22,638 nt of DNA. It comes from a virus. Position numbers and translations under genes: made by a program. The DNA lies in the IMG/VR virus record IMGVR_UViG_3300039191_000258, positions 1 through 22,638 of that record. One strand, 5' to 3'. Below, one piece after another: positions 2,211-22,638 of the stretch. The notes under the pieces were generated by a model. The model searched no databases. It had not been told where the DNA came from and saw only the letters and a program-made list of their open reading frames with translations. Position 1 is the stretch's first letter; each line of letters begins with the position of its first letter.

Positions 2211-2211
2211 C

Positions 2212-2775
2212 ATGGCAGAACCAATAAAAGAAATACCTAAGATATCAAATATAGGTAAAATAAGACTAGACTTTCAAATCTTAGATTCTGGGGACCCAAG
2301 GGTTATTCTTGTATCTGATTTTTCAGAATGGTTAGTAATTGAAGGCATGCCAGCATATCTGTATATTACACCACCCAATCAAGAAGAAGCGATAGTAAGG
2401 GTGTATAACAAAAATGCAACAAATGGACTTAACAGTTTAAATTTAGGTCTGAGTTGTGGCAACGAGTTGGAGAATTTGACAGACGGAGTATGGAATATAG
2501 AAGTACGTGGAGGAAAAAATGGAGAAAGAACTGTTGAGAAGTACTATTTAAAAAAAGATGAACTACAAATAGAGCTAGATAAGGCTTGGATAAAGCTAGG
2601 AATAGAGTATGACATTTTTGATAAAGAAGTCAGAGATTATTTGCTGTATATCGTAGGTTTTTTAGAAGCAGCTTCTTCTGCAATAAGACAAGGAGATGTA
2701 CCTAAAGCTAGGGAATTTTTTAAGCTTGCTCAGAATAAAATGGAAGCATATAAGGAATGTAAAAACTGTATTTAA
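2212..2775 (+). CDS. Unrecognised phage protein, beta-rich N-terminus and helical C-terminus
   Basis: This is a 187-residue protein of unknown function. The first ~115 residues look beta-rich and sandwich-like (for example LVIEGMPAYLYITPP, then GVWNIEVRGG). The rest is helical, with ALKL-type amphipathic patterns, and ends CKNCI. It has no signal peptide and no membrane segment. It starts 1 nt after the previous stop and abuts the next ATG, so it is co-translated with both neighbours. Position at the junction of the lysis genes and the adhesin array suggests a virion-assembly or tail-associated role, but nothing in the sequence proves this. Confidence 0.75.
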   Translation: MAEPIKEIPKISNIGKIRLDFQILDSGDPRVILVSDFSEWLVIEGMPAYLYITPPNQEEAIVRVYNKNATNGLNSLNLGLSCGNELENLTDGVWNIEVRGGKNGERTVEKYYLKKDELQIELDKAWIKLGIEYDIFDKEVRDYLLYIVGFLEAASSAIRQGDVPKAREFFKLAQNKMEAYKECKNCI

Positions 2776-3117
2776 ATGCCACTAAGTAATCAAATAAAGA
2801 ATTTAGCTATAGTATCTTTAGAGGTAGAAAAAAGCCTTGTGAGTCATACAACAAAAGAGAACTTAAAGAAAAGATTTGGAATAGGTGAGGTTGTTGAAAA
2901 AGATAGATTTTTACACACTCTAATGATACATAAAATATTATCAGAACCATTGTGTGAAATTAGGAATTTTACTGAAAAAGTAATACTGGAAGGCAATGAA
3001 GATTGTAAAGAACAGTACAACAAAACTAAAATAAAAACAGTATACGTAAATAAGGAGACTTCAGATAATGTAAACGAAATTCCCAATGTTAACTGTGTAT
3101 CAAAAATAGAATGGTAA
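2776..3117 (+). CDS. Small unrecognised phage protein
   Basis: This 113-residue soluble protein starts directly after the TAA of the preceding gene with no gap. The first ~75 residues are predicted helical and charged (KNLAIVSLEVEKSL..., then FLHTLMIHKILSEPL). The C-terminus holds a short beta-like segment and three cysteines (C75, C84 region and C108, approximate). There is no recognised domain. The zero-gap junction with the 187-residue gene upstream and the 1-nt gap to the fibre gene downstream suggest the pair acts with the adhesins, for instance as an assembly or chaperone factor. That is inference from context only. Confidence 0.7.
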   Translation: MPLSNQIKNLAIVSLEVEKSLVSHTTKENLKKRFGIGEVVEKDRFLHTLMIHKILSEPLCEIRNFTEKVILEGNEDCKEQYNKTKIKTVYVNKETSDNVNEIPNVNCVSKIEW

Positions 3118-3118
3118 A

Positions 3119-4072
3119 ATGAATGAACTAAAAAAGTTTTTTGTTTTAGGATTACCGCAAAAAGAAGATAGGTGCCCTAACGCTCTTTACATAGTTAAAA
3201 CGGATGTAGATAAGGTAGAAATATTCTTTACTGATAGACTTAAAAATGCTCTAAAACCTGATTTTAAAGTAAATCAAGAAGGAGAGCCAGGAGAAGTGGA
3301 AGTAGATCTAACTTCAACTATGGGAACCATAGAGGTCATAAACGTAGGTGGTAATACAAACATAGAGGTTGCTCAGTATATCCTAAATGCATTAACTAAT
3401 GAAGTAGAGTATGCAGAACCTTCTGCAAGTCTATCTTTAGGAGAGACTTTAGTAGAAGCAGGAACCACTGTAAAAAGAATAGTAACATCTACTTTTATTC
3501 AAAATGATGCTGGTCTTGTAAATAGACAAAGGATAAGAAGGGGTAAAATAATCATACTAGATAGTTTTTCTACAGACTTAGTAAAAACAGTAGATGATGC
3601 TGTAACAGTTAATAGGGGAAGTATAGATTATATTTCTCTTATAGATTATAATAAAGGACCCATAAAAGAAAATAATTTGGGACAGCCTGATGCTACCAAT
3701 AGAATACCTAAAGGAAGCATTGAAAGAACAGTTTCTATAAATGGGAGACTTAAAATGTTTTACAAAACAGCTAGTAGTTTTTCACAAGATGGCGAAGAGC
3801 TAAGACAAACAGCAACAGGTAGTGTTTTTGATAATTCAAATTCTTTTTCATTTATTGTTAGTGGAACACATACTAGTATAGCTTTACCTATAGATAAGGA
3901 CGTATCTAACATAGAAATTAAAACATCAAATGATGAAGATATTACCCTAAATTTTACAAATACAGAAAGTAGTATAAACATACCAGATGCAGGTTTTAAC
4001 TTACAACCTTATAGGATTTATAACTACTCTTCTGGAGTGCCTTTAAATGCAAAAATAACAATCACTTTATAA
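3119..4072 (+). CDS. Putative tail fibre/adhesin
   Basis: This is a 317-residue protein. Residues 1-95 form a small alpha/beta N-terminal domain (MNELKKFFVLGLP..., then ALYIVKTDVDKVEIFF) unlike the docking domains of the next genes. Residues ~98-317 form a beta-rich module that resembles the C-terminal half of the next gene. Shared landmarks are a PSxSL start, an NDAGLVNRQRIRRG-like stretch, an NxTNNF/ITLNF stretch followed by a DAG, and a Y..Y......P.......I.L ending. This style of beta module recurs in tail proteins of Bacteroidota phages. It is probably a receptor-binding or fibre-tip protein, with the N-terminus mediating attachment to the particle. Assignment rests on the shared module and the neighbours. 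Confidence 0.6.
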   Translation: MNELKKFFVLGLPQKEDRCPNALYIVKTDVDKVEIFFTDRLKNALKPDFKVNQEGEPGEVEVDLTSTMGTIEVINVGGNTNIEVAQYILNALTNEVEYAEPSASLSLGETLVEAGTTVKRIVTSTFIQNDAGLVNRQRIRRGKIIILDSFSTDLVKTVDDAVTVNRGSIDYISLIDYNKGPIKENNLGQPDATNRIPKGSIERTVSINGRLKMFYKTASSFSQDGEELRQTATGSVFDNSNSFSFIVSGTHTSIALPIDKDVSNIEIKTSNDEDITLNFTNTESSINIPDAGFNLQPYRIYNYSSGVPLNAKITITL

Positions 4073-4079
4073 AAAAACA

Positions 4080-5228
4080 ATGAACACATTTAATTTATTA
4101 AACTTAATAAAGATAGTTAATCCACATGCTAATGTTGATTTCTATTATGGACCCTACGATTCAATACTAGAAGCTAGAGTTGCAGTAGACGAAGCAATTA
4201 GAGCGAAAGGAAAAACAGTAGGTATTTTACAAGGTACAAAAGTAGTAGAGTATTGGTGGAGAGACGGTATAACGGATACAGACCTTATAGAAAAGTCTAG
4301 TGAAATAGATTTATCGGAATATGTAACACAGGAACAGTTACAGAATCTGATAAAAGATTATTATACAAGAACACAAATTGATGACCTTCTTTTAGGAGTA
4401 TCAGCTCTTGTAGGTTTAGAAGAAGAAATAACCGCTACTATAGTTGCAGGTAATATAAGCATAGGGGATGTATTAGAAGAAGGTCTTTCTTTTACAGATT
4501 TCGTAAAAAAGTTAGTAGAGACAACTTACAATCCAACTTTTATAGCACCATCTTTAGCACTTACAAATGACCAAGCAGGGACAAAAGAAATAGGACAATC
4601 ACTTACAGTCGAACTAGAAGCTAACTTTAATAGAGGTCAGATAAAAGGGGTTTTATTTGATGGTCTTTGGAGATTTAATGGGATTCAAGGTTTTAGAGCT
4701 GGGGAAGCATCTCAGTACAGAATAAATGGATCAATAGAAGCAACAAACTCTGTTAGTCTTGCACATACTGTTTTACAAGGCGTAAACACTTTTACTGCCC
4801 AAGTAGATCACTTAATAGGACCACAACCAACCGACAGTGAGGGAAACAACTTTAGCTCTCCTTTAGCTGCTGGAACTTTAATAAGAAATAACACACAGAT
4901 GGTAGGACAGTATAAAATATTTTTAGGAAATGTAGTTAATTTTCCAACAAACTCTTCTCAAGTTAGGGCCCTACCTTTAGACTTTTTCCAAAGTAACTCT
5001 ACAAATACCATAGATGCCTTTTTAAGTTCCACTAAGTTTGTAATAGCAGTACCGCCAGGACAAACCCTACAAAGTGCTATCACAGGAAACAACGAAAACA
5101 TAACTAATAATTTTGTATTAGAAAACTTAACAGTTCAAGATGCGGGTGGAAGTAATGTTTCTTATACTTTGTACAAATTAACAAATGCTTTAGCACCAAA
5201 TGTAGATGTAGTAATAGTTTTATCATAA
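4080..5228 (+). CDS. Tail fibre protein with docking domain, pair A member 1
   Basis: This is a 382-residue protein. Residues 1-~70 are a Bacteroidota-phage fibre docking domain with landmarks FNLLN, KIVNPHANVDFYYGPY, GKTVGI and EYWW, nearly the same as in the next gene. A linker with an YYTRTQIDDLL motif (residues 94-104) follows; Y-T-x-x-x-ID/VD-x-L repeats are common in fibre stalks. Residues ~150-382 are the beta module shared with the preceding gene. The 7-nt gap upstream is A-rich and lacks a Shine-Dalgarno motif. The likely role is a tail appendage that binds a surface polysaccharide or protein, with specificity in the C-terminal module. The docking-domain match is from memory of the family pattern. 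Confidence 0.75.
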   Translation: MNTFNLLNLIKIVNPHANVDFYYGPYDSILEARVAVDEAIRAKGKTVGILQGTKVVEYWWRDGITDTDLIEKSSEIDLSEYVTQEQLQNLIKDYYTRTQIDDLLLGVSALVGLEEEITATIVAGNISIGDVLEEGLSFTDFVKKLVETTYNPTFIAPSLALTNDQAGTKEIGQSLTVELEANFNRGQIKGVLFDGLWRFNGIQGFRAGEASQYRINGSIEATNSVSLAHTVLQGVNTFTAQVDHLIGPQPTDSEGNNFSSPLAAGTLIRNNTQMVGQYKIFLGNVVNFPTNSSQVRALPLDFFQSNSTNTIDAFLSSTKFVIAVPPGQTLQSAITGNNENITNNFVLENLTVQDAGGSNVSYTLYKLTNALAPNVDVVIVLS

Positions 5229-5232
5229 AAAT

Positions 5233-7221
5233 ATGGCTAGCTTTAATCTTTTAAACAAAGTAAAAATAGTTAATCCTCATGCAAGTGTAGATTTTTACTA
5301 TGGACCTTACACCTCATTATCTCAAGCTAAAGCTCAGGTACCTGCGGAAATAAGAGAAAAAGGAAAAACAGTAGGGATTATTTCAATAGATAATGGAGAA
5401 TCAAAAATAGAAGAGTACTGGTGGCAAACTGATACAAATGATGAAGACCTAGTTTTAAAAGGGGGAAGCTCTGACATAAAGCCCTTTTTAAGGCTAATAG
5501 AAGCAATTGTAAGTGTAGACCAAAGTAATGCTGTAGAAGATGTTAGAGAGATTGTAAGACAAGCTGTAAATACTTTAAACACACCTTTAGTTATATTAAA
5601 AGGTAGTTTTCCAATTTTACAGACAATATATGAAAATGAAGTATATAGGCTAGTTCTTAATACTGATTCTGGTAATTATGGTTCAGGTTTATCACTAATT
5701 CAAAATAAGGAGCAAGTTATAGTAATATCTAAGTCTCCTTTAAATTCAGGCACAATAGGGGACTCTGTAAGAGAGACTGTAGAGCTAGGCAATATAGGAA
5801 CTCAAACAATAGAAAGTGTAGTCAACCAAGGCACCTATGAAATAAGAGATTTATCTGAGGGATATACTGCTTTTAGGGCTGTACAGAACAACAGGCAAAA
5901 GTTATGGCTGTATATAGGAAATTCAGGAACAATAGGAGTAGGAGGTCAAATAGTAGAGCCAGAAGATTTTAATGATATAAGCACAACCAGAACCGTCATA
6001 CCTAGTTTGCAAGACGTTTTAAATGTGGGGCCACTAACCTCAGCGTTTTTTCCATCTAATGTAGAAATTACAGATGACGGGGAAAAAGTATCTTTTAAAA
6101 AAAGCAATTCTTTAATATCTATATCTGAAGATAGGGTAGAGTTAAATTCAGACCAACTAATAATTAAAAACAGCTTACCTGAAAATGCAGGACAAATATT
6201 AAAAGTAAACTCTAATGGCTACTTTGAATTAGCTGTACCAGCAGACACTATATATGATGATAGCGATGTATTAAAAGATAGCGATACAGTAAGTGAGGTA
6301 ACTGAGAATAATAAACTAATAACAGAACAAGACTATGGAGGGCTAGTCTACATAGATCAATGGAACCCCTCTACAAATACACCTGAACTTACAGACGCAA
6401 ATATATCTAAGGCTAGAAATGCTTATATATGCACTACTACAGGCACTCTTTTTGGAATAGATTGGGAGAAAGGCGATTACTTAGTATACGATGTAACTGG
6501 AGACATATTTAGGGAGCCCAACCCTCTTTTAGGTGTAGTGTCTACAGTAGGATTTAGTAATGATTATGAAGACTTAGATAATAAACCTACTATTACAACC
6601 TACGCAGAAATACCTGAAGCAGAGATAACAACAGGCACTGCCAGCACATTACGAACAATTACAGCTAGGCGATTAAAGTTTGCCACCGATGCTATAAAAG
6701 CGTTTGTCACCAATGGTTTTATAGCATTAACTGGCAACCAAACTATTGAAGGTATAAAAACATTTTCAAGTTCCCCAATTATACCTGCACCTACTACTGA
6801 TTTACAAGCAGCTACTAAAAAATATGTAGATGATAATTCTAGCGGCAGTGCAGGTGAGGTAAACTTTGTTTCAAATGTAGCTACAGATACTATTTTAGGT
6901 AGAATTTCTGCTGGTTCAGGAAATTCTGAAGAACTTACTCCAAGTCAACTTCGTACATTAATAAATGTAGAAGATGGCTCAGATAAAACAGATTCAGCAA
7001 ATGTAAAAGCAGCAGGTGCTTTAATGGATAGTGAGGTAACAAACCTAGCACAAGTAAAAGCCTTTGATTCTAGTGATTACGAACCAACTAAAGAAATAGA
7101 TGACAATTACGTTACAGATGATGAAAAAGTTGTTATTGGAAACACAAGTGGAACAAATACAGGAGATCAAGATATAAATATAGGAGATCAAGTAATAATA
7201 TTTGAAAATAATTTAATTTAA
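5233..7221 (+). CDS. Long tail fibre protein with docking domain, pair A member 2
   Basis: This is a 662-residue protein. Residues 1-~75 duplicate the docking domain of the previous gene (FNLLN, NPHASVDFYYGPY, GKTVGI, EYWW). The middle holds beta-rich shaft segments, including a G..FG..W..GDYLVYD module (about 400-430). After these comes a fibre-type repeat (about 460-530) with ITTGTASTLRTITARRL, an ALTGNQTIEGIKTF motif and a TKKYVDD motif, all common in phage side-tail fibres. Residues ~594-647 carry a repeat shared with the gene at 7897 (GALMDSEVTNLAQVKAF, then TSGTNTGDQD). It ends IFENNLI, close to the end of the next gene (IFETAL). The role is a receptor-binding fibre; no enzymatic motif is visible. 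Confidence 0.8.
   Translation: MASFNLLNKVKIVNPHASVDFYYGPYTSLSQAKAQVPAEIREKGKTVGIISIDNGESKIEEYWWQTDTNDEDLVLKGGSSDIKPFLRLIEAIVSVDQSNAVEDVREIVRQAVNTLNTPLVILKGSFPILQTIYENEVYRLVLNTDSGNYGSGLSLIQNKEQVIVISKSPLNSGTIGDSVRETVELGNIGTQTIESVVNQGTYEIRDLSEGYTAFRAVQNNRQKLWLYIGNSGTIGVGGQIVEPEDFNDISTTRTVIPSLQDVLNVGPLTSAFFPSNVEITDDGEKVSFKKSNSLISISEDRVELNSDQLIIKNSLPENAGQILKVNSNGYFELAVPADTIYDDSDVLKDSDTVSEVTENNKLITEQDYGGLVYIDQWNPSTNTPELTDANISKARNAYICTTTGTLFGIDWEKGDYLVYDVTGDIFREPNPLLGVVSTVGFSNDYEDLDNKPTITTYAEIPEAEITTGTASTLRTITARRLKFATDAIKAFVTNGFIALTGNQTIEGIKTFSSSPIIPAPTTDLQAATKKYVDDNSSGSAGEVNFVSNVATDTILGRISAGSGNSEELTPSQLRTLINVEDGSDKTDSANVKAAGALMDSEVTNLAQVKAFDSSDYEPTKEIDDNYVTDDEKVVIGNTSGTNTGDQDINIGDQVIIFENNLI
7012..7173 (+). 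repeat. Direct repeat copy 1 (shared by two fibre genes)
   Basis: This segment is about 155 bp and matches 8143-8300 imperfectly at DNA level. The best block is a 35-nt stretch with one mismatch, containing an identical 20-mer at 7048-7067 (matching 8179-8198). It encodes GALMDSEVTNLAQVKAF...SGTNTGD in the same codon phase in both genes. The final TSGTNTGDQD part also occurs a third time at 8038-8070. Confidence 0.85.
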
Positions 7222-7240
7222 CCTTTAAAAACAAAAGAGA

Positions 7241-7885
7241 ATGAGTTTACAAGCAAGAATAACAAGCGTAGTATCAAGAATTGCTACAGAATTTAAAACA
7301 GTTAAGTCGTTAATCTCTGGTAACAATACTGGAAATTTATCATCACTTGCAACAACTAATAAAGACAGTTTATTAGAAGCTTTAAATGAAGTAAAAGGAA
7401 TTGCAGATGGCAATCAAAGTAATTTAGGATTTACTCCTGAAAACGAAGCTAATAAAGGAAATGCAAATGGTTACGCTTCTCTTGACGGTGGAGGTAAAGT
7501 ACCAGCAGCTCAATTGCCAGCATTTGTAGATGATGTTCTACAGTTTGCTGATTTAAGTTCATTCCCTAGTTCAGGTGAAAATGGAATACTTTATGTTGCT
7601 GAAGACACAAATATAGTGTATAGATGGACAGGTAGTAATTATGTATCAACAAACGGTGCTTTAGCATTAGGTGAGACTTCTTCTACAGCATATAGAGGAG
7701 ATAGAGGTAAGATAGCTTACGATCACTCTCAAGTTTCTGGAGCTAACCCTCACGCAACAACTTTTTCACAATTAAATTCTAAACCTACTACAATTAGTGG
7801 ATTTGGAATAACAGACGCTTTTACAAAAACAGAAATAGGAGATGTTACAACAGATTTTGTGACCATATTTGAAACAGCATTATAA
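7241..7885 (+). CDS. Short tail fibre protein, pair B member 1
   Basis: This is a 214-residue protein. Residues 1-~25 (MSLQARITSVVSRIATEFKT) match the start of the next gene (MSLKSKIKDVVERIATEF), so the two probably share an attachment helix. The body holds classic fibre motifs. GYASLDGGGKVPAAQLP (residues 78-93) is followed by a small beta module with YVAEDTNIVYRWTG (118-131), then STAYRGDRGKIAYDHSQVSG and ANPHAT...QLNSKPT (169-183), then GFGITDAFTK (187-196). It ends DFVTIFETAL. Such repeats form trimeric beta stalks in phage tail fibres. The 19-nt upstream gap is A-rich. It could be a complete short fibre or an adaptor linking longer ones. Confidence 0.8.
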   Translation: MSLQARITSVVSRIATEFKTVKSLISGNNTGNLSSLATTNKDSLLEALNEVKGIADGNQSNLGFTPENEANKGNANGYASLDGGGKVPAAQLPAFVDDVLQFADLSSFPSSGENGILYVAEDTNIVYRWTGSNYVSTNGALALGETSSTAYRGDRGKIAYDHSQVSGANPHATTFSQLNSKPTTISGFGITDAFTKTEIGDVTTDFVTIFETAL

Positions 7886-7896
7886 TATAATAAATT

Positions 7897-9657
7897 ATGA
7901 GCTTAAAAAGTAAAATAAAAGATGTAGTAGAAAGAATAGCCACAGAATTTAATTCTGTGGCAACTGCCTTAAATAACAAAGTTGATAAGGTTACTGGAAG
8001 TAGTTTAATAGCTGATACTTCGATTACAAGACTAGCTAACACAAGTGGTACAAATACTGGAGATCAAGATTTAAGTCCTTATAGTACAGCAACAGGAGTA
8101 GAAGACAATGCTGATGTAACTGATACAACTAATGTAACAGGTGCAGGTGCGCTAATGGACAGCGAGGTAACAAACTTAGCACAAGTAAAAGCCTTTGACG
8201 CTTCGGATTATGAGCCAGCTAAAGGAGCAGATGATAATTTTGTAACAGATGCAGAAAAGACAGTAATTGGTAACACCTCTGGAACTAATACAGGAGATAA
8301 TGCAACAAACAGTCAATATTCAGGACTAGTATCAGACACTGGTACACCTGCAATACTTTCTAATGGTTCAACGCCAACCTTAAACTCAGGTATAACTGCA
8401 AGTGAAATTAGAACTCTTATTGGTGCAGGTACAAGTTCTACAGACACAGACACACAACTAAGTACAGAGCAAGTTCAAGACATAATGGGTTCTACTTGGA
8501 TAGATGGAAAAAACACAACTGTAGTCTATGATGATACAAATGGGACTTTAAAGATAGATGCTATAGATCAACGTAGTGATGAAGAAATAAGAGATGTATC
8601 ATCTGCACAATGGATAGATGGAACAAACACAACTGTAGTAAAAGACGATGCTGGAAACACTATTAAAATTAACTCTGTTGACACAAACACACAGTACAGT
8701 ACTGGTTCAGGGTTAGATAGCTTTGATACAATTTTTAGTCATGCAGACACATCTTCACAAGAATCAAGTACTAATTCTGGTAGAACTTATATTCAAGATA
8801 TAGTTTTAGATACTTATGGTCATATAACTGGGATTGATACCGCTACAGAAACTTCTACTAACACAGACACACAACTAACAAACGCACAAGTAATAGCATC
8901 AGTACTTACAAACTTTACACCATTTTTTACAGCTTCTAATATAATAGCCACAGATTCTATCTTCACAGCATTTAGAAAGTTGCAATACAGGGTCGCACTT
9001 AATGACGATAAGGTTACAAACAATACAAATGCTGATACTTTAGATAATTTAGATAGTACAGATTTTGTAAGAAGTACTGGAAATACCAGTCAAAATGTTA
9101 ATGGAAATAAGACATTCTTAAATAAAGCATTACTACCTAATCAAAGTGGAACTAAAGGAGCAGGAATAGGAAGTAATAGCTCTTCTTTTTATTCATTTTA
9201 TCAACCTAACGGAACAACACGCAAAGGTTATATTGGATTTCCTATAACTACGAACTCGGATCTTAGCATAAAAAATGATACTTCTAACAAATATTTAACT
9301 TTAAGAGAAAACGGTAATTTGGATTATAATGGTGATGTTACAGCGTCTGGATTTTTTGAAAGTTCAGACAAAAGATTAAAAATCGATATAAAGAAAATAT
9401 CAAAATCAGTATATTCTTATGAATTAAAAACCCAACCAGGGATTACTGTATATGGCACTATTGCAGATGAAATCATAAAAACCAATCCAGAAGTTGTAAA
9501 AAAACCAGATGACGGTGGAATGATGTCTGTTAATTATAATAGTTTCTTATCTCTTAAACTTGCAGAGCAGGAAAATGAGAATAAAGAGCAAAATAATAAG
9601 ATAGATAGCTTACAACAGCAAATAGACGAATTAAAAGAACTCATAAAAAATAAATAA
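7897..9657 (+). CDS. Tail fibre with C-terminal Peptidase S74 chaperone, pair B member 2
   Basis: This is a 586-residue protein. It opens with the helix shared with the previous gene (residues 1-20) and two TSGTNTGD stalk repeats (near 49 and 127). The GALMDSEVTNLAQVKAF repeat is shared with the gene at 5233. Residues 189-225 and 226-263 are an internal duplication built around W-I-D-G-x-N-T-T-V-V. A beta shaft follows. The last ~97 residues are a Peptidase S74 intramolecular chaperone: SDKRLK starts at residue 490, so S490 and K495 form the expected self-cleavage Ser-Lys dyad, followed by Y-G-x-I-A-D-E and a terminal coiled coil. In this family the chaperone drives trimerisation of the fibre and then cuts itself off, leaving a mature fibre of about 489 residues. 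Confidence 0.88.
   Translation: MSLKSKIKDVVERIATEFNSVATALNNKVDKVTGSSLIADTSITRLANTSGTNTGDQDLSPYSTATGVEDNADVTDTTNVTGAGALMDSEVTNLAQVKAFDASDYEPAKGADDNFVTDAEKTVIGNTSGTNTGDNATNSQYSGLVSDTGTPAILSNGSTPTLNSGITASEIRTLIGAGTSSTDTDTQLSTEQVQDIMGSTWIDGKNTTVVYDDTNGTLKIDAIDQRSDEEIRDVSSAQWIDGTNTTVVKDDAGNTIKINSVDTNTQYSTGSGLDSFDTIFSHADTSSQESSTNSGRTYIQDIVLDTYGHITGIDTATETSTNTDTQLTNAQVIASVLTNFTPFFTASNIIATDSIFTAFRKLQYRVALNDDKVTNNTNADTLDNLDSTDFVRSTGNTSQNVNGNKTFLNKALLPNQSGTKGAGIGSNSSSFYSFYQPNGTTRKGYIGFPITTNSDLSIKNDTSNKYLTLRENGNLDYNGDVTASGFFESSDKRLKIDIKKISKSVYSYELKTQPGITVYGTIADEIIKTNPEVVKKPDDGGMMSVNYNSFLSLKLAEQENENKEQNNKIDSLQQQIDELKELIKNK
8143..8300 (+). repeat. Direct repeat copy 2 (shared by two fibre genes)
   Basis: This is the second copy of the segment at 7012-7173. 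The offset is 1131 bp, a multiple of three, so recombination between the copies would keep the reading frame. The two copies differ mostly at third codon positions, which suggests an old duplication held by selection on the protein rather than a recent copy. Confidence 0.85.
8461..8683 (+). repeat. Internal duplication in the S74 fibre
   Basis: Two adjacent units of about 111 bp (8461-8571 and 8572-8683) encode related 37-38 residue segments. Both contain W-I-D-G-x-N-T-T-V-V followed by DD and a short K-I-D/N ending. This fits a repeated stalk element of the fibre. Confidence 0.7.
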
Positions 9658-11653: not shown

Positions 11654-12796
11654 ATGAATAGTTTTAAAAGACACATATATAAAAATAGCAAGGTAAAACA
11701 AAAAATAACGCTATTAACCCTTACCCCAACTAGCGCAAATTTATTAGGATTTTTACCTGATGATACGATTGTCCAAGTAAGGTCAAATTCAAGTTGGTTA
11801 GTTGGACCAACACCTAATTGGTTTAGTATAAGTAGTGGAGGTGTTAGTGGAAATGGTGATGGACTATTTATTATTAATACACAGAGCAACTCTACTAACA
11901 ACAGTAGATCTTACCTTTTAAATGTCACAGCAGGTGAAGTTGGAGAAACTGTAACAAAAACATTTTTTATAAGTCAGGGAGCGTTTATACCAACTTTAAC
12001 ACTTGACCCGTCTAGTAAGATTTTACCAGAAACTGACCCTAGTAATTTTAATGTAAATGTCACATCTAATACAAGTTGGATAGTAGGAGATACACCCGAT
12101 TGGTTTAGTGTTGGAGGGGGAAACGACAATAACAGTGGTTTTGGAAGTGGTAATGGCTTTTTCACTATTATACCCACAGACAATACAACAGGCAGTAATA
12201 GGGAGTATGATCTGATAGTTACAGCAGGTACAGAGGGTAATACAATTACAAAGGTATTCAGCCTATCACAAATAGGAGTTAATAAGCAGATAACCATTTC
12301 TCCAGAATTTAAGGATACTAACAGAAATCTTGAAACTTACCCCATTACTATTACATCTAATGCTAGTTGGACAATTACAATCCCAGATGAGTTTTCTTGG
12401 ATAACGGCTGATGAATTTAGCGGTTCAAATAACGGTAGTGTAAACGTAACTGTATCTAAGAATGAAACTGACTATGAAAGAACAGGCGAAGTAATATTCG
12501 CTACTGACGATGTACCTATAACACATACAGTAACACAAGAAGGTATTGATGTGAGTAACTTAAAAGAGTACACTGTATCGAAAGCAGCCACTTCATCAGA
12601 AGCTTGCAATACCTCACCAAGTATACCTGTATTTTCAAATAGTGATGATTTTGGTGGAAGCGAAATACTTTATGAAAATATTGAAGGATCATCAAGAGTT
12701 GGTGAAGGATTCTACAGAAGAGGAATAGTAGTATTAGAATTTAATAACAACGGGGAGAGAATCTCTATTAGCGAGGATGAAATATGTACAGGTTAA
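11654..12796 (+). CDS. Triple BACON-domain protein with C-terminal surface module
   Basis: This is a 380-residue protein. It has three BACON domains at about residues 17-109, 112-208 and 210-297. Each shows the N/S-x-S-W signature (W48, W142, W239), a second Trp (W56, W150, W249), an SRS- or Y-containing strand and a terminal Q-x-G (SQGA, SQIG, TQEG). BACON domains are carbohydrate- or mucin-binding candidates common in Bacteroidota proteins and known from crAss-like phages beside the tail genes. Residues ~303-378 form another module (EYTVSKAATSSEACNT..., GFYRRG, NNNGERISI, EIC) that resembles the end of the large protein at 14986. There is no signal peptide, so it is a virion protein. It is the last gene of its operon, followed by a terminator. 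Confidence 0.85.
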   Translation: MNSFKRHIYKNSKVKQKITLLTLTPTSANLLGFLPDDTIVQVRSNSSWLVGPTPNWFSISSGGVSGNGDGLFIINTQSNSTNNSRSYLLNVTAGEVGETVTKTFFISQGAFIPTLTLDPSSKILPETDPSNFNVNVTSNTSWIVGDTPDWFSVGGGNDNNSGFGSGNGFFTIIPTDNTTGSNREYDLIVTAGTEGNTITKVFSLSQIGVNKQITISPEFKDTNRNLETYPITITSNASWTITIPDEFSWITADEFSGSNNGSVNVTVSKNETDYERTGEVIFATDDVPITHTVTQEGIDVSNLKEYTVSKAATSSEACNTSPSIPVFSNSDDFGGSEILYENIEGSSRVGEGFYRRGIVVLEFNNNGERISISEDEICTG

Positions 12797-13584: not shown

Positions 13585-14114
13585 TGATAGGAACTCGTAA
13601 AAAGATAAAAAAAGAAGTAAAGCCTAGTAAAGAAAAATCCAAAAACCCTCAAGTTCTAAATATGTTATTGCCTCACGATCAAAGAGCTTGGTCACACTAC
13701 AGAGGTTTTAGAAAAACAATAGAGCCAGAATTAGAAAACAGATCTACCTATGCAAAGGTAGTAAGAGAGATATTTAATTCAGTATCAGAGCTAATGCTAG
13801 AGTATGAAGGAGGAGTTTTCTTAGAAGAGTATGGGTATTTCTATGGAAGCATTATACCTTGGAAAAATGAGGGGTACAAAAGCAAATTTCATCCAGACCC
13901 ATTGTACCATACAAACGGCCAACAGTACACATTACAATTTAATTCAAAGTTATCCACCAAGAGTTGTATAGGGGGCATGGTTATGGATAGAACATTCAAC
14001 CACAAACTCAAAAAAGATTTTTATTCAAGCTTATACTCAGGATTCAGACCCAAATTAAACTTTACAATGTTAGAGAGTCTACACAGCAGAGCATCAAAAA
14101 GAGATAGAGAGTAA
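13584..14114 (+). CDS. Putative crAss-like tail/neck structural protein
   Basis: This is a 176-residue protein. It has a very basic N-terminus (RKKIKKEVKPSKEKSK) and a core with RAWSHYRGFRKTIEPE (about 35-50), EYEGGVFLEEYGYFYG (about 73-88) and YHTNGQQYTLQF (about 106-117). It ends in a basic helical tail. The aromatic- and Gly-rich EGGVF..GYF segment resembles a conserved small protein that precedes the ring genes in crAss-like phages, as I recall. It has no membrane segment. It overlaps both neighbours by one base, so all three are translationally coupled and probably made in fixed ratios for neck assembly. The exact role is unknown. Confidence 0.55.
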   Translation: MIGTRKKIKKEVKPSKEKSKNPQVLNMLLPHDQRAWSHYRGFRKTIEPELENRSTYAKVVREIFNSVSELMLEYEGGVFLEEYGYFYGSIIPWKNEGYKSKFHPDPLYHTNGQQYTLQFNSKLSTKSCIGGMVMDRTFNHKLKKDFYSSLYSGFRPKLNFTMLESLHSRASKRDRE

Positions 14115-14983
14115 TGACAACAGAAAAGCAAATATACGCAGAGATAAGAAACACTTTCAAATCTTACGATGAGGCAGGACTTGTAGATGAAATATCTTTA
14201 AGAGGCTGGCTAAGAACTGAACTAAAAAGGTTTGGCACCAATGTCATGGTAAACACACAAGACATACTTAAAGTCAAACAAGGAAAAGCAGAACTACCCA
14301 AAGACTTTTGGTCATTACAAGAAGTTTGGAGATATCATGCTTCCCATTACAAAACAGAAGCTGTAGAAATACAAAGGGACTCACACTTTAGAACAGAAAT
14401 TGCAAGTAACTTTGAGTGTGATAATGGAGAGTTTGGTAATAATTGCCTAATGGAAAATTACGATACTAAATATGGAAGTGTAGCTCTTTACTATAACAAC
14501 CCACAGATATTAAGAATTAAACCAGGATTTAGCAGGAGTTCTGTAACCAAAGACTGTGTAAATTTACCCAATAAAGTTCAAAAAATAAATGGGAATCAAG
14601 TAGAAAAGCAAGGCAATTTCCTCTCTGTAGAGTTTACAGACGGCCATTTATTTGTTGTTTATAAAGCCTTACCTACAGATGAAGATGGGGACCTATTAAT
14701 ACCTGAAACTCAACACGATTCTTTATCGGAGTATTTAACAAGAAATTTAGAATACAGATTTTTAAGGTCTTTGGTATTAAACGAAGATGCTCCAAATCTA
14801 GGTTCAAGGCTACAACTACTTAAACAAGAGTCTGATGATGCTTTTAGTCTTGCAATGACAGAGAGTAAAGCTTCTGTATTAGACCCTTCAGTTTGGAAAA
14901 GCATAGTACAGATGAACAGGAAAAGGTACAGAAGATTTGAAAACCTAACCCCTGCACAAAACCTTAACAGAAGAAACCACTAG
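14114..14983 (+). CDS. Putative ring / tail stabilisation protein (P22 gp4-like position)
   Basis: This is a 289-residue protein. A helical N-terminus (KQIYAEIRNTFKSYDEAGL, then LRGWLRTELKRFG) leads to a beta core (about 55-200) containing LPKDFWSLQEVWRYH, a typical turn region of head-tail adaptors. The C-terminus is helical and ends in a basic patch (MNRKRYRRFENLTPAQNLN). The length, fold pattern and location directly before the giant muzzle-like gene match the crAss-like ring 1 / tail stabilisation protein, whose relatives (P22 gp4 type) attach to the portal and extend the neck. It overlaps the upstream gene by one base and is followed 2 nt later by the next ATG. Confidence 0.65.
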   Translation: MTTEKQIYAEIRNTFKSYDEAGLVDEISLRGWLRTELKRFGTNVMVNTQDILKVKQGKAELPKDFWSLQEVWRYHASHYKTEAVEIQRDSHFRTEIASNFECDNGEFGNNCLMENYDTKYGSVALYYNNPQILRIKPGFSRSSVTKDCVNLPNKVQKINGNQVEKQGNFLSVEFTDGHLFVVYKALPTDEDGDLLIPETQHDSLSEYLTRNLEYRFLRSLVLNEDAPNLGSRLQLLKQESDDAFSLAMTESKASVLDPSVWKSIVQMNRKRYRRFENLTPAQNLNRRNH

Positions 14984-14985
14984 AA

Positions 14986-17900
14986 ATGAACAAAAAAAAT
15001 ATAACGCCTTCATTTGCTAGAACAGGTATGAACAAAAGTGTTCATTTTTCTGCCTTAAAACCAGAGGAGTATACTCATGCAAAGAATGCTAATTTCTCGA
15101 ACGAAACAGGAAATGGATGGTTGATTCAAAATGAGCATTCAAACATACTAGCCTCTAAATTTAAAGATGGTTTTTCTGTGGTAGGTTATAAGAACGATAT
15201 TTTTTTAAACAGGACATTTTATTTTTTGAGCAATCCTGTTACAGGTTTCTCAGAAATAGGAGTTATAACCCAAAACATTTCTTTTGATGACACAAACACA
15301 ACAACCAATGAGCATCAAGAGTACACTACTTTATTAAATGACGATGGGGAATTAAATGACGAATCTAACAAATGCTTAAATCTTTCTACAAGGTTTCCTA
15401 TAAAGACTATAGAGATTCATAATGAGAAATTAGGCACAATAATTTATTGGACAGACAATCTCAACCCACCTAGATATTTAAACCTAGATAAGTTAGAAGA
15501 ATATAAATTCACAGGACAAATACTTTGTGGAGAAGACTTAACAGAAGTTACTTGTGTTGCTTGTGACAAACTTAAAATGTTCAAGGAGCCCGAAGTATTA
15601 GAGCTAAGACCTTCGGAAGTTGTACTTGGAGGTAGACTTAAAAGAGGCTCTTACGAGTTCATAGCAGCCTATTGTGATATACTAGGAAATGAACAGTCTA
15701 GATTCTTTTCTTTAACTAACTCAGTAAATATTTTTGACGAACAAGAAAACATCCTACAACAAAGCGAAATTGCAGATGAAACGGGATATGCCATAAAAAT
15801 AAAAGCTAATAATTTAGATACTAGCTTTTCGCATTACAAGGTTGTGGTAATTCAAAAAAATGATATAAACTCTGCAACAACTTATATAGAGGAGGGCATA
15901 CACTCTACATCAGACGACACTATTCTTTTTGATACGGATGCAAATAAGGCTGATTATGAAATGCCATTACAATTAGCACAACCTGCTGTCAAAATAGAAA
16001 GGGCACAACAGTTAAAAGAAATAAACAACTCTTTATTTTTAACAGGAATAACAAATAAAAAAGTACCTAACTTACAAAAAGTAGTAAACCTTTTAGGTAT
16101 ATACTTACAGTGGCAATCTTTTATAGCTAGAGAGGATTTATATAAAGACGGAGTTTCTTCTGCAAATTACAAAGGGTACTTTAGAGATGAAACATATCCA
16201 CTATCAATACGGTTTATAAAAGATGGAGACTACACCCCAAATTACCCTCTAATAGGTAGACCACCAACAACAGAAGACTTAGATGTAATAGATAATAGGG
16301 ACTCAAACTCTGTAAATAAGCAGAACTTTGATGAGGAGGGAAACGTACTAGACTTAGGAAATCAAATTAATAAAAGGTGGCAATTGTACAACACCGCAAC
16401 AAAAAACAGTGGAGAAAACCCTTTACTTAGTAACTTGACTTCTAGCATATTTACAGAGAGTACAACAAAAGTAACTATAGTTTTAGACTTAGGTGAATTG
16501 TTAAGTGGCTCATTTACTTTAAGCTTAGAAGAAGGTGATGATTTCACAGATTTAGAGGGTTATCTAAACGAAAATTTACAGGAACTTTTAGACACAGATC
16601 CTTTAGACTTAGATTCAGGGTTAAACCAAGTTTTAGCTCTATTCAGAACGAGCAATTACGAAGGAATAAATGCTTTACCAGATTACTCGGAGATAGGAGA
16701 TTGCGATGATGCAGAGTTGGAAAGTGAAGAAATAGATGTCCAAGAAATAATTCCAGAAGGTTTAACATTTGAACCTAGAATTTTTCCAATTGAGTATTCT
16801 AAAGCAAGAATGGAAACTACCGCAGCTTGTCAACTATTTGACTTAAACCTTGATGGTTCTCTTAAAGGTTTTGCAAAATGGTCGGGTAGAGATAGAATAT
16901 TTTTTAGGACACAAGGAGTAATTGTAGGGGATTGTATAAATAGCACACCACTTATTTTAATACAAGATATAGGTGAAGCAACTTTTCCAGTAGATAGTTT
17001 CTCTTACTACCCATCAGTTTTTACTGAAGGTACTACATCCTCTGACCCTAATGAAGAAAGAATGTCAGAAGCGTTAACCAATAAAGTAGCAAGCACACAA
17101 GGAGCACCAGTAAACAGTTTTGATGATGTTATTTTTACCAATAGGGTTGCGAAGAATGCTGCATGGTATGAATACATTCCTCAAAATAAAGAGGACACTT
17201 TTGTACTAGATTTTTCAAGATCCTTTTTTAAAGATAGAGATAACTTAGGGCAGACAAACTATAGATTATCTATATACAGCTCATGTTCAAATTCAGAAGG
17301 GCCCATTTTCCACAACTTTTTTGATTATAGGCTTGGCACAATGTTACAATTTAAGAAAGATGGAACAGACCTTATAATAACAGATGACAAAGGTAAAACA
17401 GAGACCATACAAGGCATTCCTTCTAGTTATCAAATAGCAGTAGAAAACGGCATATTGACTTTTATAGGGGATACACTATTTGCTCCAGATGAACAGTCTA
17501 GTGAACTTTTACAAGTCTATACAGAACCATTGCCTCAGCCTCAATTTATAGCATTAGGTTCTCAAGGCTGTTTTAAAATATCAATATTTCCAGAGAGGTT
17601 TAAAAGTGTGACTGTCACTTATGACAAAATAACAAGTAAGAAAACACAAATATGGAGAGCCCTTTGCAGCTTTAGCGTATTTAATTTAAAGCAAGGCAGC
17701 GACCCATTATCTTATGAAAATGGACAGTTCGCTTATGTAGAAAGCACAGTAAATTATCCAGACAATGCTGAACTTTACAACTCTAAAGATTTAAGTATAA
17801 GCCCAGAAGATTTTTCAGAAGGTACTTTAACAAACACTTCTACAGGATTTAAGGATTTTTTTGAAGAAAATTACACAGAGGGCATAGTAAACAATGGGGA

Positions 17901-20900
17901 GTACATTTTAAAAGACATTACCGATTTTAGGTGTAAACCTATTAGGCATTTTAGAATGCCAGATAATAAAATATCTCCTTTTATGTCGTCCAACACAATA
18001 GGGTCTTTTGCTCAAAGTCTAGTACACCCTTTAGGTATAACTGTAAATGAAGAGGTAATAAATGATTTTTTAAAAATAGCTGTTAAAAATAGCCTCATCA
18101 CAGAAGAAGAAAGAAAAGCCATAAAAGGTTATGAAATACTCAGAGGTGACAGAGAATCGGAAAAATCTATTGTAGCTAGAGGTATTACATTTGACTTATA
18201 TAAGTATACTGAAAAAGGTAGAGATGTCCACTATGCAAATTATCCTTTTAATTCTTTAGGTGATGATGTTATGCACTACAAGGACAAAGATAGGGACAAT
18301 TTCATATCACATCCGTATAATAGCCAAGAAAATTCAAATTGGACTTTCCATTCGCCAGACACAGACTATAATTCACAAAATGCTTCTGCATCTTATTTAG
18401 TAGTAGACGGCTACATATATGGTAAAAGTGAGGGTAATATGGATGTAGTTAGAGACCACCCTAAATACACAATACTAGGAAGGAAATTAAAAAGACTTGC
18501 TAGTACTTTAGCAACCTTAGAAATTCTAGCAGAATCTTTATCACAAATAGCAGATATTGTTTCTAGAACTTGGTTTGTTGGTGGTCCAGGCTCTACTGGT
18601 GGTAATTTTATAGCACCAATAATAGGAGCAGGGCTTTCTGTTTTTAGCAGTGTACTAGGTTCTATCTTTAAGTATTCGAGGTATAAATACCAATGGCTAG
18701 AGACTTTTAGAGATTTAGGTAAAAGAAGAGATTTTGCTAATTTCTATACAGCTCATGGATATTACAACTATTTTAAACCTAATAACTCTATTGAAGACAA
18801 CATAAGATTTCTTAACATAAACAGAGGTTTGAATGAAGGTAGGTTCAGTTTTATAGACAGTGTTCAAGGAGAAAGATTAGAAGTAAATAATATAGACAGA
18901 GAAAAAACAACTATACTAGCTACTGGTAGCGACCATACGATAGAGTATTATCCCGATTATATAAATTACGACAATGCAAGTGGTAACAGAAATACAGCAT
19001 CTAAAACTTATGCAAGTGCAGATGGTATATGTCAATCAGCAAAATCGGATGACATAAGGTCTAATGTGGCTTCTATGTATGTGACTTTAAAAAACTATTT
19101 ACCTGCTCAGTATGGAACAATAGGGAGTATAAAGTGGATAACTACTGGGTATACAGGAGACTTAAACAAAACAAAGACAGAATGGTTTGGTATTTTTGGA
19201 GGAGACTGTTATATATCAAGACACACCTTTAGAAGGGGCTTTCCTTTTTTCAACACAACGGCTATGAATCAAGCCGACATGCAAGCATTCGAATATAAGT
19301 TCTATGCAAATATAGGTAAAGAACCAAGATTCTATTTGAATTTTGGCATAGATTCAGAAGAAAGAGAAGGGGGGAAGTTGTTCCCCTTCCAAAACAGTGA
19401 GTATAGTCTAGATTGTGTAGATTATTCAGGCTCTTATGTTAAGGAGCCGTCTAAATTTTATTTGGAGTATAATGGCATCCCTAACTTTTTAGTAGAGTCT
19501 ACTGTAAATACTAACTTAAGATACGGTAAACCAGAGCCAGAAAATAACTTTTTCCCAAATGTAGGGGATAAGATGGAGTGGACGCAACCCTCTACAAATC
19601 CAAGTAGAAGAGGAAACACCTTTTTCTATAACAAGAATTACTCGCCCTCACCTTTAAAACTAAATAAGAATGTATTACCTGTAAATTATAATCAAGAAGA
19701 GTATAATAAGAAGTCGGATATGCTGAATGGTACTATGTATTCTTTAGCAGATAATTCTGAAAATTCAGATGTAAACCCCTGGTTGATTTTTAGGGCACTA
19801 AACATGTACGAATTTAGAACTTCTTACGGTAAATTTACAGGGATGTCTGAGTTAGAAAGTGGGCAGGTATTAGTTACTTTTGAAAATACTTCTGTTATAT
19901 TTAATGCGGTAGATCAAATAGTAGATGATGGACAAAACCCACAAGACCAAGTACTTGGTACAGGAGCTATATTTAGAAGAAGACCTACAACAATGTCTGA
20001 TACAGAGTTGGGCTATAGAGGTAGCCAAAGTTTTCAAATACTAGGTACACCTAATGGACACATTTTTGTGGATGCTAAAAGAGGACAGATATTTTTAAAA
20101 CCTTTGGGGCAAAACGGTTTTGAAGAAATCTCTAAAAGCTATGGAGAGGAAAGAACAAACATGGAAGCTTGGTTTAAAGAGCAATTGCCTTTTAAAATAT
20201 TAGAGGGTATACCCAACTACGATGTAGATAACCCTTTTAATGGTGTAGGAATTACTATGGGGTATGATAGTAGGTATAACAGGATCTTTATTACTAAAAA
20301 AGATTATATACTAGAAAATGATAACTGCATAGAGTATAGCGAAACAGGGGGTCTTGTAATAAATGGAACAGATTGTGAAGGAACAGTTTCAACAAATTGC
20401 CCAGAAGGCTATACTTATGATGAAGATTCACAAAAATGCCAAGGTATTGCTATAACAAATTTATGCCCAACAGGGTTTACTTATGATAGTGCAAACAAAA
20501 AGTGTGTAAAGGTAGAGACTATTCAAATAGTATTACCACCAACTGTGGTAGCAACACCAAGTTCGCTCACAGCAAACGAAGGAGAAGAGTTTACAATAAG
20601 CTTATCAAGTCCTTCTGAGGGGGATATTGAATTTTATTGGGAAGTACAAGAAACAGGAGTTACGGGTGCATCTAGCGGAACAGGCGAAACAATAATCCAA
20701 ACATTGCAGGGAGATGGAACTGCTGTTTATACTATTAATGCTTATAACAATGACACAGAATGTGAAGGAGAACCTATAGAAGTAACTGTAATATCAAATG
20801 AAGTTTCCGATCCCGATCCAGAAACGTGGTCATCGTTTCAAAGTTTTGAAGGCAGACCAGAGGCAGGTAAGTGTGGAACAAACACAGAGGATATTTATTA

Positions 20901-21066
20901 TGAACACAATGGAAGCGGCGCATTGCCAGCTATAGGAAATTTAATTCGAAATATAACAGACGAAGTTTTGGTAGGCATATTATTTATTAAGATGCCTAAT
21001 ACTGGTTATGGTTTTGAAACAGATGAAAATAGTGTAGTCTTAGGCACATACTTTTGTGTACCTTAA
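14986..21066 (+). CDS. Giant muzzle-like tail protein with Cys repeats, Ig-like and surface module
   Basis: This is a 2026-residue protein, the largest gene here. The N-terminus (MNKSVHFSALKPEEYTHAKN, then GNGWLIQNEHSNI) and overall size match the large crAss-like tail muzzle protein as I recall it. A hydrophobic segment at about 1206-1228 (FIAPIIGAGLSVFSSVLGSIF) could be a membrane-active or core helix. After about residue 1790 the character changes. Two Cys units come first (CPEGYTYD at 1805, CPTGFTYD at 1827), then an Ig/PKD-like beta domain (about 1846-1938). The last ~85 residues form a module (WSSFQSF..., KCGTNTED, then ...YFCVP) like the end of the BACON protein. The stop TAA is in frame with the next gene, and the DNA between them has no further stop. 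Confidence 0.7.
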   Translation: MNKKNITPSFARTGMNKSVHFSALKPEEYTHAKNANFSNETGNGWLIQNEHSNILASKFKDGFSVVGYKNDIFLNRTFYFLSNPVTGFSEIGVITQNISFDDTNTTTNEHQEYTTLLNDDGELNDESNKCLNLSTRFPIKTIEIHNEKLGTIIYWTDNLNPPRYLNLDKLEEYKFTGQILCGEDLTEVTCVACDKLKMFKEPEVLELRPSEVVLGGRLKRGSYEFIAAYCDILGNEQSRFFSLTNSVNIFDEQENILQQSEIADETGYAIKIKANNLDTSFSHYKVVVIQKNDINSATTYIEEGIHSTSDDTILFDTDANKADYEMPLQLAQPAVKIERAQQLKEINNSLFLTGITNKKVPNLQKVVNLLGIYLQWQSFIAREDLYKDGVSSANYKGYFRDETYPLSIRFIKDGDYTPNYPLIGRPPTTEDLDVIDNRDSNSVNKQNFDEEGNVLDLGNQINKRWQLYNTATKNSGENPLLSNLTSSIFTESTTKVTIVLDLGELLSGSFTLSLEEGDDFTDLEGYLNENLQELLDTDPLDLDSGLNQVLALFRTSNYEGINALPDYSEIGDCDDAELESEEIDVQEIIPEGLTFEPRIFPIEYSKARMETTAACQLFDLNLDGSLKGFAKWSGRDRIFFRTQGVIVGDCINSTPLILIQDIGEATFPVDSFSYYPSVFTEGTTSSDPNEERMSEALTNKVASTQGAPVNSFDDVIFTNRVAKNAAWYEYIPQNKEDTFVLDFSRSFFKDRDNLGQTNYRLSIYSSCSNSEGPIFHNFFDYRLGTMLQFKKDGTDLIITDDKGKTETIQGIPSSYQIAVENGILTFIGDTLFAPDEQSSELLQVYTEPLPQPQFIALGSQGCFKISIFPERFKSVTVTYDKITSKKTQIWRALCSFSVFNLKQGSDPLSYENGQFAYVESTVNYPDNAELYNSKDLSISPEDFSEGTLTNTSTGFKDFFEENYTEGIVNNGEYILKDITDFRCKPIRHFRMPDNKISPFMSSNTIGSFAQSLVHPLGITVNEEVINDFLKIAVKNSLITEEERKAIKGYEILRGDRESEKSIVARGITFDLYKYTEKGRDVHYANYPFNSLGDDVMHYKDKDRDNFISHPYNSQENSNWTFHSPDTDYNSQNASASYLVVDGYIYGKSEGNMDVVRDHPKYTILGRKLKRLASTLATLEILAESLSQIADIVSRTWFVGGPGSTGGNFIAPIIGAGLSVFSSVLGSIFKYSRYKYQWLETFRDLGKRRDFANFYTAHGYYNYFKPNNSIEDNIRFLNINRGLNEGRFSFIDSVQGERLEVNNIDREKTTILATGSDHTIEYYPDYINYDNASGNRNTASKTYASADGICQSAKSDDIRSNVASMYVTLKNYLPAQYGTIGSIKWITTGYTGDLNKTKTEWFGIFGGDCYISRHTFRRGFPFFNTTAMNQADMQAFEYKFYANIGKEPRFYLNFGIDSEEREGGKLFPFQNSEYSLDCVDYSGSYVKEPSKFYLEYNGIPNFLVESTVNTNLRYGKPEPENNFFPNVGDKMEWTQPSTNPSRRGNTFFYNKNYSPSPLKLNKNVLPVNYNQEEYNKKSDMLNGTMYSLADNSENSDVNPWLIFRALNMYEFRTSYGKFTGMSELESGQVLVTFENTSVIFNAVDQIVDDGQNPQDQVLGTGAIFRRRPTTMSDTELGYRGSQSFQILGTPNGHIFVDAKRGQIFLKPLGQNGFEEISKSYGEERTNMEAWFKEQLPFKILEGIPNYDVDNPFNGVGITMGYDSRYNRIFITKKDYILENDNCIEYSETGGLVINGTDCEGTVSTNCPEGYTYDEDSQKCQGIAITNLCPTGFTYDSANKKCVKVETIQIVLPPTVVATPSSLTANEGEEFTISLSSPSEGDIEFYWEVQETGVTGASSGTGETIIQTLQGDGTAVYTINAYNNDTECEGEPIEVTVISNEVSDPDPETWSSFQSFEGRPEAGKCGTNTEDIYYEHNGSGALPAIGNLIRNITDEVLVGILFIKMPNTGYGFETDENSVVLGTYFCVP

Positions 21067-21084
21067 CAACTAATAAAACAAAAA

Positions 21085-22011
21085 ATGGATTGTAAATGCC
21101 CAGATGATAGTTATACTATTGTAGAAGAAGGAGGACAAACACTATGTAAAAAAACCACTGAGATACTAAACGTAGAATGCCCTGAAGGGTGTGAAACAAT
21201 AGTAGACTCAGAGGGTTTTGCTACTTGTATTTGTCCAGATACTGTCGACCCAATAGTAGAAAGCGTAGTTACAGAGATAGACATATTTGATGAGCAGTAT
21301 TTTAGAGAGTCATCTTGGACTATGGCATTCAGTCTAGATATTGGTGGATGGATATCTTTTTACGACTTTAAACCTAACTTTTATGTAAACCACAACGATT
21401 ACTTCCAAACAGGTTACAACATAGTTAATAATAGCTCTAAAAAAGGTCTGTGGACCCATTTACTTACTAACAAGAGCTACCAAGTTTTCAATGGGGAGAG
21501 TTATGATTGGGAGATAGAAGTGCCTATAGAGAATAAGCAGGTAAACAAATATTTACAAAGTTTCGCTTACAGACTAGACTCTAGAAAGTATCTGACAGAA
21601 ACGGAATATCATCAGAACCAAGACATAGGTTTTGACAGTGTATTTATTTACAACGGAACAAACTCAACAGGAAAATTAAAACTGGACTTACAAAAAACAT
21701 TAAGACAGTTGTCTCAATATCCAATATTAGAAGAAGACTCACAGAGAATACTTCAGACTAGACAAGATGAAGAGTTTAGATTTAATTATTTCTATAATAG
21801 GGTACCCAATGAGTCTCTTATAAAAGCACTAGTAACTCACGATGAAAATAACATCAACAGAGAAGTGAATACAGAGGCCGTTAGCTTTTTAGGTAAAAAA
21901 GTATTAGAAAGAATGAGAGGGACATCCTTTTTGGTAAACTTAAGATCTGAGGACACAGAACATAAAAAGATATTTGAAATTTCCACCATGTCTGAAAACC
22001 TATACAAATGA
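21085..22011 (+). CDS. Detached C-terminal part of the muzzle-like tail protein
   Basis: This is a 308-residue protein. The first ~55 residues hold Cys units (CKCPDDSYTI, CPEGCETIVD, ATCICPD) that continue the repeat style found near the end of the preceding protein. From about residue 60 it has an aromatic beta-rich domain: SSWTMAFSLDIGGWISFYDF (76-95), then KPNFYVNHNDYFQTG, then HLLTNKSYQVFNGES. I associate this with the C-terminal region of the single large tail protein of related phages. It lies in the same frame as the upstream gene, 18 nt after its stop, and its own A-rich leader (ACAAAAA) suits re-initiation. It probably joins the muzzle complex as a separate chain. It ends with a 4-nt overlap (ATGA) into the lysozyme gene. 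Confidence 0.65.
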   Translation: MDCKCPDDSYTIVEEGGQTLCKKTTEILNVECPEGCETIVDSEGFATCICPDTVDPIVESVVTEIDIFDEQYFRESSWTMAFSLDIGGWISFYDFKPNFYVNHNDYFQTGYNIVNNSSKKGLWTHLLTNKSYQVFNGESYDWEIEVPIENKQVNKYLQSFAYRLDSRKYLTETEYHQNQDIGFDSVFIYNGTNSTGKLKLDLQKTLRQLSQYPILEEDSQRILQTRQDEEFRFNYFYNRVPNESLIKALVTHDENNINREVNTEAVSFLGKKVLERMRGTSFLVNLRSEDTEHKKIFEISTMSENLYK

Positions 22012-22638
22012 GAGTAAAAGAAAAAATAAAAGAAAAAGACAATAGGCAAAAAGCTTTTACTTATTTAAGAGAAAAGGGCTACAAAGACCATGAGATAGCA
22101 GGTATACTAGGAAATTTTGTAAAGGAATCAGGAAGGACTAGTTTAAAGGTAGATGCCTATAATCCAGACGATAGGGGGTCTCCTTCTTTTGGTCTAGCAC
22201 AGTGGAGAGCAGAAAGATTAGACACTCTTAAAGAAATGCAAGGGGATGATATGTATACTCTTGAAGGACAGTTAGACCACATGGATTGGGAGTTAAAAAA
22301 TACTCATAAGAAAGCTTATAGAAAATTGAAAGAGGCAAAAACAGCAGAAGAAGCTGCCTTAGCTTTTTCTACACATTTTGAAAAACCTTACGCACCGACA
22401 GCAGCTAATGACGAAAGACAGGATTATGCTAGAGTTTTTTACGACTCCTATTCAGACATAAATGATAAAGACCTAGTTTACATAAAAGACAACGGCAACA
22501 TAAAGACTAAGGACAGAACTACAGCTACAACTATGGAACTGTATGACTCTCAAAAATATAAAGAGGAAGTATCTGGATTAGCTTTTGATATATCTACACA
22601 AAATTTAAAAGACACATACTTAACAAATTTGCAGGACA
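22008..22638 (+). CDS. Phage tail lysozyme protein, N-terminal part
   Basis: The frame is open to the right edge; 210 codons are visible. Residues ~15-150 match the phage tail lysozyme domain (Phage_lysozyme2 type): IAGILGNFVKESG (30-42) with E40 as the likely catalytic acid, then SFGLAQW (60-66), a QLDHMDWEL helix (88-96) and AFSTHFEKP (119-127). These landmarks are typical of virion-borne hydrolases that cut peptidoglycan to let the tail or ejected proteins pass the wall. After the domain the sequence becomes charged and helical, suggesting the start of a much larger virion or injected protein. The ATG overlaps the TGA of the preceding gene (ATGA), so translation is coupled to the tail protein. 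Confidence 0.85.
   Translation, partial: MRVKEKIKEKDNRQKAFTYLREKGYKDHEIAGILGNFVKESGRTSLKVDAYNPDDRGSPSFGLAQWRAERLDTLKEMQGDDMYTLEGQLDHMDWELKNTHKKAYRKLKEAKTAEEAALAFSTHFEKPYAPTAANDERQDYARVFYDSYSDINDKDLVYIKDNGNIKTKDRTTATTMELYDSQKYKEEVSGLAFDISTQNLKDTYLTNLQD

Follow-up and report, generated by a model that had tools for sequence, protein, structure and literature searches.

A probable two-chain crassvirus muzzle with an adhesin-type cassette at the break

The locus considered here raises the question of how a phage tail protein is encoded when a stop codon separates most of it from what looks like its own C-terminus. It lies in a stretch of 22,638 nucleotides (the window; IMG/VR virus record IMGVR_UViG_3300039191_000258, positions 1–22,638), which is a fragment of one phage. 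The protein concerned is the muzzle, which plugs the tail tip; it is the most distinctive tail protein of crassviruses and their proposed ejection gate. The crassvirus muzzle is hexameric and comprises a ring-joining domain, a seven-bladed propeller, Ig insertions and a crass domain (PMC10172136). Variation in its length is put down to insertions within the crass and IG2 regions, and splitting of the chain is not described (PMC10172136). The features of the locus are as follows.

14986–21066, plus strand: muzzle chain 1, 2026 aa, comprising the muzzle core and a C-terminal cassette; stop codon TAA at 21064–21066
14986–20307, plus strand: muzzle core, ending in putative strand B of a propeller blade (IFITKKDY); placed by alignment with fused relatives and by hhalign to crAss001 gp44
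20308–20514, plus strand: Cys units 3' of the core (NCPEGYTYDEDSQKCQGIAITNLCPTGFTYDSANKKC), read from the sequence; like units occur in split and fused relatives
about 20536–20805, plus strand: putative Ig/PKD-like domain of the cassette, from a weak Ig_3 match and from PKD_5/Ig_7 at the matching place in relatives
20812–21063, plus strand: terminal 84-aa module of chain 1, present only in this phage among the collections searched
21064–21084, plus strand: stop codon TAA, then the A-rich 18-nt leader of chain 2, read from the sequence
21085–22011, plus strand: muzzle chain 2, 308 aa, from phrog_37948, fused relatives and an AF2 model
21085–21312, plus strand: putative Cys connector head of chain 2 (MDCKCPDD..CPEGC..ATCIC.., 76 aa), from CxC heads in relatives
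21313–22008, plus strand: conserved C-domain of chain 2, with predicted strands C and D of the divided blade followed by the remaining muzzle C-terminus

An earlier note, made from the letters of the DNA, had called the large protein muzzle-like, and this is borne out by a match of chain 1 to the Pfam family crAss_MUZ (PF25731; E=1e-36, 127 bits against a cut-off of 27) and by the gene directly upstream (14114–14983), which encodes the tail ring protein CrAss_Ring_1. The window also encodes a tail-fibre-like protein (7897–9657) that weakly matches the Peptidase_S74 chaperone close to its end, a protein with three BACON-type stretches (11654–12796) and a phage tail lysozyme domain gene (22008–22637) whose start shares 4 nt with the end of the chain-2 gene.

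The 308-residue protein is the muzzle C-terminus, as the same note had proposed, because phrog_37948 covers both window proteins in order and the two are fused in named relatives. Residues 13–1812 of chain 1 align to positions 12–1768 of the 2289 in this PHROG, and residues 60–291 of chain 2 align to positions 2048–2274; both parts lie within one ORF in phi4:1, phi17:2, csAssE-Sib and Leptolyngbya phage Lbo-JY46. The fused muzzle product of phi4:1, gp42, owes its annotation to MS/MS proteomics, and residues 14–1812 of chain 1 are 38.7% identical to this structural protein. Sequence searches of the PDB with the window muzzle or a C-domain profile gave no match, and comparison of folds was required. 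The crAss001 muzzle was the top Foldseek match both for the AF2 model of chain 2 (7qok_A, E 1.4e-5; 7qol_P, E 2.7e-5; prob 1.00) and for the C-terminal region of a fused relative, and hhalign of the fused region of relatives to crAss001 gp44 gave a prob of 95.6 (E 1e-8). The window does not encode the muzzle as one polypeptide (TAA at 21064, restart at 21085), and single-chain encoding was not treated as defining the family, because split members nest among fused ones.

The two reading frames, the Cys units, the TAA and the in-frame gap were confirmed letter for letter. The 18-nt gap (CAACTAATAAAACAAAAA) contains no stop, is flanked by Cys units on both sides, and would join the chains into 2341 residues if the TAA were read (2026+1+6+308). 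Being in frame is unremarkable in itself, since chance puts a third of junctions in frame. Sequencing error is an unlikely source of the split: a second IMG/VR contig (3300012145_000030), of uncertain independence, overlaps positions 17073–22638 with zero mismatches, and many relatives are split.

The position of the break was located from relatives in which the muzzle is whole. In fused relatives without a cassette, about 31–47 aa lie between the end of the core (FITKKDY) and the start of the C-domain (SWTxAYS). In a profile alignment that is low in identity at the exact break and does not fix the blade number, the break maps near residue 1200 of crAss001 gp44, where strand follows strand nearly directly. 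The AF2 model of the region in fused relative L069 has strands A (270–277), B (282–288), C (324–329) and D (334–339), with the break between B and C; its mean pLDDT is 58.9, with values of 61–88 in ten-residue blocks around the break, and its best PDB match is the crAss001 muzzle 7qok (E 2.3e-9). Chain 2 modelled alone has a pLDDT mostly of 78–95 from residue 141, and mostly below 50 in residues 96–138, right after the blade strands. These profiles and the low-confidence model, on which homology at the break rests, suggest that strands A–D form one propeller blade, with A and B supplied by chain 1 and C and D by chain 2.

Between the two muzzle parts, at this hairpin (loop 1), lies an adhesin-type cassette with its own stop, as the earlier note had held. 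The Ig-like domain that it placed there has only a weak match within the window (Pfam Ig_3, E=0.07, below cut-off); relatives have clear PKD_5 domains, and also Ig_7, in the corresponding position. The whole cassette had no match in the phage collection, and the terminal 84-aa module retrieved only the identical contig from the collections searched; family searches reach described domains only. Relatives fill the same position differently. The inserts of fused muzzles include vWA domains (above the Pfam cut-off in L060, below it in L054 and L091), vWA-like inserts recognised by eye from a MIDAS-like motif only (L051, L077, phi4:1, L070, L101) and a DUF5122 propeller (L009), and the chain-1 cassettes of split muzzles include PKD/Ig strings, Fib_succ_major, Lcl-like and DUF285 domains and leucine-rich repeats. 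In the pair L047 and L048, the cores are 88% and the C-domains 97% identical, and the cassettes only 28%. On this domain evidence, the hairpin is a cassette slot for vWA, Ig/PKD, leucine-rich repeat, lectin-like or propeller domains, and it is from the domain types that an adhesin role may be proposed. The distribution fits a pattern, confounded by ancestry, in which compact domains with neighbouring ends remain within the chain and elongated ones terminate it; split L048 does have a vWA-like domain, but after two PKD domains. The FISUMP- and Lcl-type ends of some chains 1 prompted consideration of a diversity-generating retroelement as the driver of C-terminal cassettes, but there was no RVT_1 match in 17 records, several of which, the window's own contig included, are fragments. 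One fused muzzle without a loop-1 cassette (L052, ORF at 1622–9200) carries NHL-type propeller repeats elsewhere (Pfam NHL, E=5e-71).

The break is not confined to this phage. Scanning with the core end gave 338 relatives; the best 80 were taken forward, and removal of duplicates left 76: 25 are fused, 19 split at loop 1, 25 split at a second loop (loop 2, between YFQTG and GLWSH), three split at both and four unclear. The split state was thus seen in 47 of these 76 loci, counts that mirror similarity to the query rather than prevalence. On the core tree, the fused/split state takes nine changes, and starred branches force at least eight for the fused label. The split, which the earlier note had treated as one event, appears from the tree to have arisen repeatedly, with about 8–9 state changes and at two loops. 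A split phage with a cassette (L102) and a fused one with an empty loop (L109) are sisters, with C-domains 80% identical, and the fused, loop-1-cassette-free pair L052/L053 is nested inside a split clade, where its fusion may be a reversal; ancestral splitting followed by several re-fusions is possible. A single origin for all loop-1 splits was considered as well: grouping the window with the main split clade was rejected (core, p=2.7e-5; C-domain, p=0.019), though the C-domain test no longer rejected this when L054 was added (p=0.28), and the window split may be independent of that clade.

Split muzzles share a further trait, in that the downstream chain opens with a characteristic head. A CxC-type Cys head lies close after the start methionine of chain 2 in 18 of 19 loop-1-split relatives, the exception being L090. 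That locus (= L020, 1–8732) holds a phi4:1-like muzzle in three consecutive ORFs, of which the middle one encodes a 363-aa repeat-like protein; its vWA-like domain stays with the C-terminal muzzle piece. Both L047/L084 and L044/L086 have an extra chain (635–736 aa) between the muzzle pieces; it likewise begins with Cys units, and its profile similarity to chain-2 heads is weak (best E 0.006). At loop-2 splits, a conserved head domain of about 80 aa opens chain 2, and in eight phages the intervening ORF opens with a homologue of this head (E 2e-10 to 6e-17). Extra adhesin-like chains can occupy the space between muzzle pieces, and the heads of chain 2 and of the extra chains are candidate docking connectors, perhaps involving disulfides. 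Other small ORFs are found in the junctions. L098, L099 and L100 have a 194-aa ORF exactly at the split (9046–9630), HNH/homing endonuclease-like by eye with no Pfam match, which the near-identical L097 and L114 lack; between chain 1 and the extra adhesin-like chain of L044 (2809–3201; = L086, 2827–3201) lies an ORF of 124–130 aa that resembles MNT-type nucleotidyltransferases by eye.

The locus very probably encodes a two-chain muzzle, in which chain 1 ends in a free-hanging adhesin and chain 2 docks to complete the propeller. Most known relatives make the subunit of this tail-tip hexamer as one polypeptide. Here the hairpin joining strands B and C of a single blade would have taken up a cassette of Cys units, an Ig/PKD-like domain and a terminal module, closed by a stop codon, with translation restarting 18 nt on, at the ATG of the 308-aa chain. 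This second chain would present its Cys connector units first, then strands C and D and the remaining muzzle C-terminus, and would dock onto chain 1 during assembly. The cassette would then hang free at the tail tip, where it would probably contact the host surface and might bind receptors. Such a break would allow elongated, one-ended adhesins to be displayed and exchanged without threading the chain back into the propeller.

It is improbable that chain 2 has become an independent structural protein outside a muzzle that works without its C-terminus. Its separate encoding, and the extra chains that some relatives have between the pieces, speak for this; the chain-1 core, however, still closes with blade strands A and B, and phages split at both loops retain every piece. 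The pieces also seem to remain one functional unit, because L052/L053, nested among split phages, are fused.

Still less probable is programmed or leaky readthrough of the TAA yielding some continuous 2341-residue muzzle, functional in this long form and with the adhesin internal, which the earlier note had offered as an alternative. The same-frame, stop-free gap is compatible with it, as are similar gaps in L096 and L103, and the CAACTA directly 3' of the TAA fits the CAR-YYA context known at leaky stops of plant viruses. However, this context is not common to the relatives, and neither frame nor stop-free extension is conserved among them: the downstream chain is out of frame at 9 of 13 adjacent-chain loop-1 junctions (window included), one of the four in-frame junctions has a further stop, L042/L081 reads TAG TAA, and whole genes separate the chains in several other relatives. 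The window ordinarily uses TAA as its stop, at 16 of 20 gene ends, and recoding of this codon was also rejected. Chain 2, in addition, has its own start, with 8–11 A among the last 12 nt 5' of the ATG in all nine split loci compared. Readthrough was rejected as a conserved mechanism because frames are mixed, genes lie in some junctions and chain 2 has its own ATG with an A-rich leader.

That a nonsense mutation has turned the 308-aa protein into a decayed remnant without function, as the one TAA between the parts in this phage might suggest, is the least probable reading, given that many relatives share the split with both parts full-length, that the C-terminal part of chain 2 models confidently and that, in those split relatives whose dS can be measured, its C-domain is under strong purifying selection (dN/dS about 0.03–0.05, well below 0.1; dN 0.018 and dS 0.41 for L047–L048, 0.055 and 1.59 for L041–L048).

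A broader proposal, advanced tentatively and with somewhat less than even confidence, is that many crAss-like muzzles are modular multi-chain assemblies. The two propeller hairpins would be break-and-display sites, at which adhesin chains could be added in series, each with a docking connector (at loop 1 of Cys type, at loop 2 a domain with a GPF motif), and receptor-binding modules could be swapped as whole genes with the gate undisturbed. If two or three polypeptides, meeting at fixed breaks, routinely make up the propeller, exchangeable host-contact modules would be located, one reason for the large variation in muzzle length would be given and sites for structural study would be indicated; in many uncultured phages, annotation would then split off or miss the C-terminus of the muzzle. 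The open-access literature searched held no account of a split muzzle.

The nozzle of phage T7 differs from the crassvirus muzzle in that it has no crass domain, and it is not known to have a cassette slot of this kind; the ring-joining domain and propeller of the muzzle resemble this protein (PMC10172136). The crAss001 muzzle, gp44 (PDB 7qok, 7qol and 8ckb; PF25731), is homologous to the window protein in its N- and C-terminal parts by Pfam, hhalign and Foldseek, but consists of a single 1371-aa chain, in which the loop broken in the window has essentially no residues. The closest named relative is the muzzle of Cellulophaga phages phi4:1 and phi17:2 (phrog_37948), with 38.7% identity in the core and 37% in the C-domain. 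It carries a 329-aa insert, vWA-like by motif, at the same loop, but as an internal part of a single 2289-aa chain.
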